DNA from: Rhodanobacteraceae bacterium ZG21-1
GTDB taxonomy: Bacteria; Pseudomonadota; Gammaproteobacteria; Xanthomonadales; Rhodanobacteraceae
Assembly: GCA_021390615.1 (NCBI GenBank)
Contig: JAJEJU010000025.1
Coordinates: forward strand, 558,001 to 622,000
Direction of reading: 5' to 3'
Length of the DNA: 64,000 nt
Shown here in pieces: positions 54,644 through 59,858 of the stretch. The number at the start of each line of letters is the position of its first letter. Positions within the stretch are counted from its first letter, which is position 1. The notes under the pieces are model-generated. The model was not told the DNA's origin, ran no database searches, and saw only the letters and a program-made list of their open reading frames with translations. The translations under genes were made by a program, and so were the position numbers.

Positions 54644-54955
54644 TCAACCGAGCTTGATCTGAACATCGACGCCGGCGGCGAGATCGAGCTTCATGAGCGC
54701 GTCCACGGTCTTGTCGTTCGGATCGATGATGTCGAGCACGCGCTTGTGGGTACGAGTCTCGTACTGGTCGCGTGCATCCTTGTCGACGTGCGGCGACACC
54801 AGAATGGTGTAGCGCTCAATCTTGGTCGGGAGCGGGATCGGGCCGAGCACCGTAGCGCCGGTGCGCTTGGCCGTCTCGACGATCTCGCTGGCCGAGCGAT
54901 CGATCAGGCGATGATCGTACGCCTTGAGCCGAATGCGAATCTTTTGGTTCGCCAT
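54644..54955 (-). CDS. rpsJ: 30S ribosomal protein S10
   Basis: The 103-residue protein has the same length as in E. coli; it also acts as NusE in antitermination. The core reads [21 protein letters not shown] and [18 protein letters not shown]. It is the first gene of the S10 group; the promoter lies about 165 bases upstream. Confidence 0.98.
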
Positions 54956-55080
54956 AAAACCGTGTCCTGTTGTCGAAAGAACGTAATGTGTGATCCGGCA
55001 TGGCTTCTCGCTATGCCGCACTACCCTTGCTTGCCACCAGAGTCCGCCACCGAGCTTACTGCCACCCAGCGATTGCCGAC

Positions 55081-55118
55081 TTAAAAAGTCTTGGCAGGCC
55101 TACGAGGCCTGCCAAGAC
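55081..55118 (-). terminator. Promoter-proximal hairpin plus T-run in the S10 leader (putative attenuator)
   Basis: On the minus strand GTCTTGGCAGGCCT (55118-55105), loop CGT, AGGCCTGCCAAGAC (55101-55088), then TTTTTAA. It has all marks of an intrinsic terminator but begins at the predicted transcription start of rpsJ, so it either controls the S10 operon or blocks read-through from tuf. Confidence 0.72.
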
Positions 55119-55123
55119 AGAAA

Positions 55124-55152
55124 AGTATAGAGTGCACAACAACCCAGGTCAA
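55124..55152 (-). promoter_or_regulatory. Sigma70 promoter of the S10 operon
   Basis: TTGACC (55152-55147, 5 of 6), a 17-base spacer and TATACT (55129-55124, 5 of 6). This is the best promoter match in the window; the predicted start is near 55117. Confidence 0.8.
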
Positions 55153-55206
55153 CAGGAACGCTCCTGTCGCTGGGCTGTAGATACCACTCACGACCATCCA
55201 GGTCAG

Positions 55207-55251
55207 CGAACTCGAGGCACGTCCTGCACCTCATTTCGCGGTGTGCCGAGC
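55207..55251 (-). repeat. Repeat element copy 2, upstream of the S10 promoter
   Basis: On the minus strand GCTCG, eight bases, CGAAATGAGG, then TGCA...GGAC...GCCTCG and GTTCG. It matches copy 1 (59812-59858) in order and in the eight-base spacing. The middle part can form a small hairpin. Confidence 0.65.
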
Positions 55252-55319
55252 GACCCAAGTGAGCCGTCCAGCCAAATCAATCCAAACAGTATAGCGGCTC
55301 TCCCCGAGCTTGGGAAGAG

Positions 55320-55348
55320 GTGGCCGGGCAAATCATCCGCCCGGCCAC
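55320..55348 (-). terminator. Hairpin after tuf
   Basis: GTGGCCGGGC (55320-55329), nine-base loop, GCCCGGCCAC (55339-55348), eight bases after the tuf stop. The following minus-strand bases are CTCTTCCC, a poor T-run, so it is a weak or factor-assisted terminator of the str operon. Confidence 0.6.
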
Positions 55349-55356
55349 TTATTCGC

Positions 55357-56547
55357 TTACTTGATGATCTTGGCGACCACGCCGGCGCCGACCGTGCGGC
55401 CACCTTCGCGGATCGCGAAGCGCAGGCCTTCGTCCATCGCGATCGGGTGAATCAGGCTCACCGTCATTTTGATGTTGTCGCCCGGCATCACCATCTCCAC
55501 GCCGTCCGGCAGCTGGCACGCGCCCGTCACGTCCGTCGTACGGAAGTAGAACTGCGGACGGTAGCCCTTGAAGAACGGCGTATGACGACCGCCCTCGTCC
55601 TTCGACAGCACGTACACCTCCGCCTCGAAGTCCGTGTGCGGCGTGATCGTGCCCGGCTTCGCCAGCACCTGACCGCGCTCCACGTCGTCACGCTTCAGAC
55701 CGCGCAGCAGCAGACCCGCGTTGTCGCCCGCCTGGCCCTGATCCAGCAGCTTGCGGAACATCTCCACGCCCGTCACCGTCGTCTTCGCCGTCGGACGAAT
55801 GCCCACGATCTCGACTTCGTCGCCCACCTTGATGATGCCGCGCTCGATTCGACCCGTCACCACCGTGCCGCGACCCGAGATCGAGAACACGTCTTCCACC
55901 GGCATCAGGAACGCCTTGTCGATGTCGCGCTGCGGCTCCGGAATGTACGCGTCCAGCGCTTCCACCAGCTTGATGATCGCCGGCACGCCAATCTCGCTCT
56001 GATCGCCTTCCAGCGCCTTCAGCGCCGAACCCTTCACGATCGGTGTGTCGTCGCCCGGGAAGTCGTACTTCGACAGCAGCTCGCGCACTTCCATCTCGAC
56101 CAGCTCGAGCAGCTCCGCGTCATCGACCATGTCCGCCTTGTTCAGGAACACCACGATGTACGGCACGCCCACCTGGCGGCTCAGCAGAATGTGCTCGCGC
56201 GTCTGCGGCATCGGGCCGTCCGCCGCCGAACACACCAGAATCGCGCCGTCCATCTGCGCCGCACCCGTGATCATGTTCTTCACGTAGTCCGCGTGGCCAG
56301 GGCAGTCCACGTGCGCGTAGTGACGCGTCGGCGATTCGTATTCCACGTGTGCCGTCGAGATCGTGATACCGCGCGCCTTCTCTTCCGGCGCCGCGTCGAT
56401 CTGGTCGTATGCCTTGAACTCGCCACCAAAGCGCTCGGCGCCGATCTTCGTCAGCGCTGCCGTCAGCGTCGTCTTGCCGTGGTCCACGTGACCAATCGTG
56501 CCCACGTTCACGTGCGGCTTGGTGCGTTCGAATTTACCCTTTGCCAT
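55357..56547 (-). CDS. tuf: Elongation factor Tu
   Basis: GTPase that brings aminoacyl-tRNA to the ribosome. The 396-residue protein has GHVDHGKTT (P-loop), DCPGH, NKADM and the C-terminal domains, ending [15 protein letters not shown]. It closes the str operon 96 bases after fusA; a second tuf copy usually lies upstream of secE elsewhere in the genome. Confidence 0.98.
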
Positions 56548-59699: not shown

Positions 59700-59720
59700 G
59701 CGAAGCTATTCCTGAGAAAC

Positions 59721-59748
59721 ATAAAGGCAGACCGAAAACCGGCCTGCC
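59721..59748 (-). terminator. Hairpin plus short T-run close to the predicted start of the str transcript
   Basis: On the minus strand GGCAGGCCG (59748-59740), loop GTTTT, CGGTCTGCC (59734-59726; one G-U pair), then TTTAT. The sequence CTTGGCAGGCC that opens it is shared with the S10 leader hairpin. Confidence 0.5.
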
Positions 59749-59759
59749 AAGAAGCGGGA

Positions 59760-59788
59760 ATTTAACATGGGCAACTTGCCATGGGCAA
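59760..59788 (-). promoter_or_regulatory. Candidate promoter of the str operon
   Basis: TTGCCC (59788-59783), a 17-base spacer and TTAAAT (59765-59760); each hexamer matches 4 of 6. The predicted start lies near 59753, about 54 bases before the rpsL start codon. Confidence 0.45.
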
Positions 59789-59811
59789 GTTGACGCCTGT
59801 CGTCCTTGGCT

Positions 59812-59858
59812 CGAACACGAGGCGCAGTCCATGCGCCTCATTTCGTATGTCAGCGAGC
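59812..59858 (-). repeat. Repeat element copy 1, downstream of rpoC
   Basis: On the minus strand GCTCG, eight bases, CGAAATGAGG, CGCA...GGAC...GCGCCTCG, GTTCG. GAGGCGCA and TGCGCCTC (59819-59826 and 59832-59839) form an 8-bp hairpin. Copy 2 lies at 55207-55251. Confidence 0.65.

Follow-up and report, generated by a model that had tools for sequence, protein, structure and literature searches.

A conserved terminator-like hairpin at the predicted transcription start of the Lysobacterales S10 operon, probably part of an attenuating leader

The hairpin and T-run that precede rpsJ in the 64,000-nucleotide stretch of DNA analyzed here (the window) are probably the intrinsic terminator of a leader that attenuates transcription of the S10 operon, the fraction of RNA polymerase reading through being probably regulated. 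Its conservation, its place in the path of seemingly every transcript of the operon and the presence of a sister hairpin before a second ribosomal operon make it look more like a transcription brake on ribosome production than like a palindrome due to chance.

The hairpin lies in the spacer between tuf (EF-Tu; 55357–56547), the last gene of the str operon, and rpsJ (S10, NusE; 54644–54955), the first gene of the S10 operon, on the minus strand, which is that of both genes and of every feature below unless stated otherwise. The earlier note on this DNA, which gave no strand, had described TTGACC-N17-TATACT followed, from the predicted start nucleotide, by a perfect 14-bp stem, a three-base loop and TTTTT, and we could confirm this anatomy together with its coordinates. 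The S10 operon promoter P2 (TTGACC-17-TATACT, 55124–55152, score 10/12) has its -35 box at 55152–55147 and its -10 box at 55129–55124; after the latter come TTTCT and then the stem, whose first base, G55118, is the sixth after the -10 box. As this is a usual place of +1, G55118 is the predicted start. The hairpin GTCTTGGCAGGCCT-CGT-AGGCCTGCCAAGAC (55088–55118) comprises 14 pairs, nine of them G-C, and a loop of three bases, and the TTTTT at 55083–55087 directly after this G+C-rich stem-loop completes the form of an intrinsic terminator. Counted from +1 through the last U of the run, the predicted P2 RNA measures 36 nt, within the 35–40 nt estimated previously, and it is possible, judging from the sequence, that such a short RNA is abundant.

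The rpsJ hairpin is part of the minimum-free-energy fold of the 170-nt leader (z -3.65). A hairpin of at least 9 bp in that register was found at 131 of 16,000 random positions of the same genome (0.8%), and a hairpin plus T-run at only 1 of 16,000; chance is thus not a good explanation. Promoter-like sites scoring at least 10/12 numbered four in 928 kb of strand-bases sampled, and such a hairpin followed the rpsJ one only. Since the stem sequence occurs once in the genome, a mobile or repeated palindrome was rejected, and no plasmid homologue was found. A search of Rfam for matches above or near the gathering score gave no related family for this region of the window or for seven relatives. 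Two further structures were observed in the spacer: an inverted repeat GTGGCCGGGC..GCCCGGCCAC (55320–55348) directly after the tuf stop codon, which has no T-run, and a hairpin around GNGAGAAGCC (54990–55021), between the terminator and the boxA-like site discussed below, which is conserved in Rhodanobacteraceae rpsJ leaders.

We gathered rpsJ leaders from 60 relatives and 80 named genomes. Together these genomes, which include Dyella, Rhodanobacter, Luteibacter, Stenotrophomonas, Xanthomonas, Lysobacter and other genera, assign the window to the order Lysobacterales (Xanthomonadales), families Rhodanobacteraceae and Lysobacteraceae, and nearly every long tuf-rpsJ spacer among them holds a hairpin of the start-site type. 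Of the 13 stem pairs, 11 show changes on both sides when 78 leaders are aligned, with 108 such cells against 24.6 in shuffled alignments, and the signal collapses once the partner columns are slid. The T-run (at least four T in six positions) is present in 95 of 101 leaders, as compared with 13% of control positions, and is kept both in leaders with a P2-like site (52 of 54) and in those devoid of one (43 of 47), which indicates that selection on the terminator anatomy does not depend on P2.

Promoters were called by consensus scoring alone. In addition to P2, whose TTGAC and TATACT are conserved in 53 relatives, an upstream promoter-like site P1 (TTCCCA-17-TATACT, 55288–55316, 9/12, -10 box at 55293–55288) was detected. 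Among 102 leaders, a P1-like site is present in 82, a P2-like site in 54, both in 34, and no leader lacks both; the terminator lies between the promoter-like site or sites and the first gene in all 102, as in a leader attenuator. Between hairpin and rpsJ, by contrast, promoter-like sites occur in 3 of the 102 leaders, where mononucleotide shuffles predict 14.5. As far as consensus scoring goes, transcription of the S10 operon thus seems to start upstream of the hairpin only; with promoter-like sites on that side and hardly ever downstream, rpsJ transcripts would have to cross it. A literature search found no Xanthomonas start-site map with rpsJ.

These data bear differently on the three readings put forward in the earlier note, namely an abundant short RNA, an attenuator, or an insulator that would block read-through from tuf, the true start lying beyond it. 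The attenuator gains from the covariation, from the persistence of the hairpin in leaders lacking P2 and from the exclusively upstream position of the promoters; the insulator with a later start is disfavored by the deficit of downstream sites. A related explanation is that the hairpin is an ordinary terminator or insulator for the str operon (tuf) and for P1 transcripts, which P2 merely overlaps, its own transcripts escaping because termination so near the start is inefficient. In its favor are the canonical terminator form and a location behind tuf on the strand of that gene. However, in the 47 leaders without P2, essentially none of which has a downstream promoter, such a terminator would sever the S10 operon from its only promoters; furthermore, the sister unit described below sits after rpoC and before rpsL, and GraL of E. 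coli is an example of efficient termination close to a promoter. We therefore regard this explanation as unlikely and continue to favor the leader attenuator.

The -35 box of P2 is overlapped by an inverted repeat, CGACAGGA-GCGT-TCCTGTTG (55150–55169), with a mean score over 52 P2 sites of 18.0 against 10.8 (sd 3.7) in shuffled sequences; at rpsL the corresponding repeat scores 17.7 against 11.4. In the read-through RNA the P2 repeat is predicted to fold as part of a longer helix. Between the -35 repeats of the rpsJ and rpsL promoters (55150–55169 and 59772–59792) the sequence varies and the pairing is kept.

Upstream of P2 the leader carries a structured RNA element, EL1 (55206–55239), that reads GCGAA-AU-GAGGUGC-AGGAC-GUGCCUC-GAG-UUCGC, with GGA in its loop. 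It is followed by a second small hairpin, EL2 (GACC-UGGAU-GGUC, 55192–55204), which also displays GGA in the loop and forms in the MFE fold. A profile of EL1 matched 105 leaders, with the consensus GCGAA-AU-GAGGYRC-AGGAN-GYGCYUC-GNG-UUCGC lying some 130 nt before the hairpin; 98% of cells are paired and covariation amounts to 0.220 as compared with 0.123 after shuffling. Frequent G-U pairs argue that EL1 acts as RNA rather than as a DNA palindrome. The GGA of the EL1 loop is kept in essentially all of the 78 aligned leaders, and GGA or AGG stands in the place of EL2 in 77 of the 78. An RNA made from P1 or by read-through is predicted to fold as a chain of hairpins that ends in the terminator (z -7.0).

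A covariance model of EL1 run across the genome gave two significant places, the rpsJ leader and the region upstream of rpsL, and this two-hairpin GGA-loop element before rpsL and rpsJ is a new RNA motif, absent from Rfam. In a class-wide sample EL1 was confined to Lysobacterales, with two weak matches outside the order; one of these, checked against its list of reading frames, falls inside a coding frame and was dismissed as spurious. Third matches in relatives were weak and unconvincing, except for a short one in one relative (L178:1280–1303, minus), where, at a site other than rpsJ or rpsL, a lone inner GGA hairpin, ATGAGGCGCAGGACGCGCTTCGTG, runs directly into a terminator-like hairpin. Mimicry of rRNA by the upstream element was also considered and rejected, as model R1 had no match in the E. 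coli rrnB, rpsL or S10 regions.

The GGA motifs in the apical hairpin loops of EL1 and EL2 are of the type bound by CsrA/RsmA, which makes this protein a candidate regulator, and no more than that. They also invite an explanation in which the product of the unit is an abundant trans-acting short RNA, either the 36-nt RNA from P2 or one of about 200 nt from P1 whose GGA-loop hairpins could bind RsmA/CsrA. Small RNAs of the Rsm type consist of a promoter, GGA-loop hairpins and an intrinsic terminator, and P1 with the two GGA-loop hairpins and the terminator resembles that layout; the near-invariance of the GGA in EL1 points the same way. Nevertheless, a P1-like site is missing in 20 of the 102 leaders, the rpsL copy stands directly after rpoC where no P1 was seen, and EL1 is conserved well beyond its loop, more than CsrA sites need, so that we consider a dedicated trans-acting RNA very improbable.

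The rpsL copy of EL1 (59812–59845; 32.7 bits, E 1.3e-7 over the genome) lies 30-odd nt after the rpoC stop codon. It belongs to a sister unit spanning 59711–59851 directly upstream of rpsL, within which the EL1-model match covers 59851–59788. The order of parts is the same as before rpsJ: the element, a promoter-like site (TTGCCC-17-TTAAAT, 59760–59788) inside an inverted repeat (CAACTTGCC-CAT-GGCAAGTTG, 59792–59772), a hairpin near +1 (GGCAGGCCGG-TTT-TCGGTCTGCC, 59726–59748), a T-rich stretch (TTTATGTTT) and the gene. Relatives also possess the rpsL sister unit, some with a clear TTGAC-TATACT and a hairpin at +1; in the Rhodanobacteraceae copy the hairpin is present and the U-run, TTTATGTTT, is poor. 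A joint promoter-hairpin model applied to the genome scored 65.5 bits at rpsJ and 37.7 bits (E 2.9e-6) at rpsL, and returned a weak third match (22.1 bits, E 0.036) at the rplU promoter. This promoter of the L21 gene (L245:1501–1577, plus strand; C17:869587–869663 in the genome of the window) has a TATACT and an apparent start-site hairpin and is devoid of a U-run; hairpins like it were seen in several relatives, in a comparison covering ten genomes.

In the class-wide sample, the joint model had matches in 25 genomes from outside the order, and comparison by coordinates located 22 of these 25 directly upstream of rpsL. Reading the rpsL leaders of the class directly revealed the same promoter-hairpin design in many families; in E. 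coli, which the joint model does not reach, rpsL presents TTGACA-17-TAAAAT-TCGGC-GTCCTCA..TGAGGAC. The rpsJ copy is related to the rpsL unit by joint alignment and by the model, yet does not stand before rpsL, and as a promoter-hairpin unit it looks specific to the order. The simplest reading of these sequences would be that the start-site hairpin is an old rpsL feature of which Lysobacterales have a second copy before rpsJ, the direction of copying being our inference. For rpsL of EPEC, a growth-phase-dependent premature 3' end has been reported (PMC10687069), at a position that may or may not be that of the start-site hairpin; an E. coli 3'-end paper makes no mention of rpsL.

The distribution of start-site hairpins also bears on another role, in which the hairpin would serve mainly as a 5'-terminal stem-loop of ribosomal-protein mRNAs and termination would be minor. 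A stem-loop at +1 would bury the 5' triphosphate, guarding it against pyrophosphate removal and the mRNA against 5'-end-dependent decay. Start-site hairpins at rpsL throughout the class, at E. coli rpsL and apparently, with no U-run, at rplU are in agreement with such protection, as is the G at the first stem base (base 6 after the -10 box) in 48 of the 53 P2-bearing relatives. Against it, the rpsJ hairpin and its T-run are kept in 47 leaders without a P2-like site, where the hairpin would lie well inside the transcript. As a main function we hold protection to be rather doubtful, if somewhat less so than a plain str-operon terminator. Still, the poor U-run at rpsL in Rhodanobacteraceae and its absence at rplU, the possible third hairpin, count against attenuation and leave room for protection as a second role.

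Taken together, the results favor a leader attenuator at rpsJ that could work as follows. RNA polymerase arriving from tuf, starting at P1 or starting at P2, whose first transcribed base is the first base of the hairpin, would cross the hairpin before reaching rpsJ. A fraction would stop there and release a short RNA, of 36 nt from P2 or of about 200 nt from P1, while the remainder would go on to make the ribosomal-protein mRNA, and the size of the stopped fraction is probably regulated. From sequence evidence we infer both termination at this hairpin in the cell and regulated read-through. For P1 and read-through RNA, the upstream GGA-loop element may set the read-through; for P2 RNA, a factor acting on the hairpin itself might do so instead. 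Because the hairpin starts at +1, P2 RNA has no room for an upstream antiterminator, and no alternative antiterminator pairing was apparent in the folds of the window, so that the layout is not that of an antiterminator switch; protein-dependent attenuation needs no such structure. It is tempting to speculate further that EL1 and the start-site terminator hairpin form one RNA module, of which Lysobacterales have copies in front of both the str and the S10 operon. One and the same RNA-binding factor, for which ribosomal proteins, elongation factors and RsmA/CsrA are candidates, would act through this module to set read-through along the rpoBC-str-S10 chain. We put this forward tentatively; if true, it would couple the synthesis of RNA polymerase, elongation factors and ribosomal proteins.

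A further level of control may operate closer to the gene. In front of the rpsJ ribosome-binding site lies a boxA-like site, GTTCTTTCGACAA (54970–54982). Of 117 leaders, 112 have G[CT]TCTTT no more than 50 nt from rpsJ, against 0.6 expected, and the presence of the boxA-like site in so many leaders is a new finding of this work. As 16S genes were not found in the assembly of this genome, we compared the site with relatives: the rrn spacer boxA of three of them, TGTTCTTTGAMAA, has the core GTTCTTT in common with the rpsJ site, which bears one extra base after it. Since S10 is NusE, autogenous control is plausible besides attenuation, and S10-NusB probably controls rpsJ translation at this site. 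The likeness to the boxA autoregulation of Nus factor genes (PMC5725501) lies in a boxA-like site close to the start of rpsJ. That study reported boxA before rpsJ in three genera; in Lysobacterales the site is nearly order-wide and takes deviating forms, GTTCTTTCGAYAA and GCTCTTTTAACG, which its exact GYTCTTTAANA would miss, suggesting that NusB-S10 autogenous control occurs in a form that escaped the published consensus.

Altogether, the analysis describes a leader design in which the predicted terminator starts right at +1; compensatory changes have preserved it in front of two major ribosomal operons in the order to which Xanthomonas, Stenotrophomonas and Lysobacter belong. To our knowledge, the control of ribosomal-protein operons outside E. 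coli is largely unknown, and the leader RNAs of ribosomal operons are often not conserved between orders. The design raises two questions: whether RNA polymerase can terminate on a hairpin made from its own first 31 nucleotides, and what decides read-through. It also adds, with the upstream GGA-loop element, an RNA motif that Rfam does not hold.

Three known systems are closest to the one described here. In the E. coli S10 operon, attenuation by L4 and NusA is established (PMC10931766), and, as proposed here, a leader terminator before rpsJ acts on transcription of the same operon. In contrast, no sequence similarity beyond 8-mers exists between the two leaders, so that an E. coli-type L4 leader is not recognizable by sequence in Lysobacterales; neither the S10 nor the rpsL region of E. 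coli is matched by model R1, and on reading E. coli rpsJ we saw no start-site hairpin with T-run. Rfam 15 cannot decide on the S10-leader type, since the S10 leader of E. coli itself went unmatched there. GraL of E. coli greA resembles the leader proposed for rpsJ in having a terminator a few nucleotides from the promoter, a short RNA and partial read-through into the gene, and it stops about two thirds of transcripts (PMC6829880); gene and sequence differ, and the GraL hairpin comes after about 19 nt, whereas that of rpsJ is at +1. Finally, Naville and Gautheret (2010, PMC2965389) predicted attenuators upstream of rpsL, in Xanthomonas and Pseudomonas among others, which likewise place an intrinsic terminator between the promoter and the first gene of a ribosomal-protein operon. 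Relative to those leaders, compared by layout, Lysobacterales add a copy at rpsJ, have the hairpin start at +1, leaving P2 RNA without an upstream antiterminator, and possess an extra upstream RNA element common to both operons.
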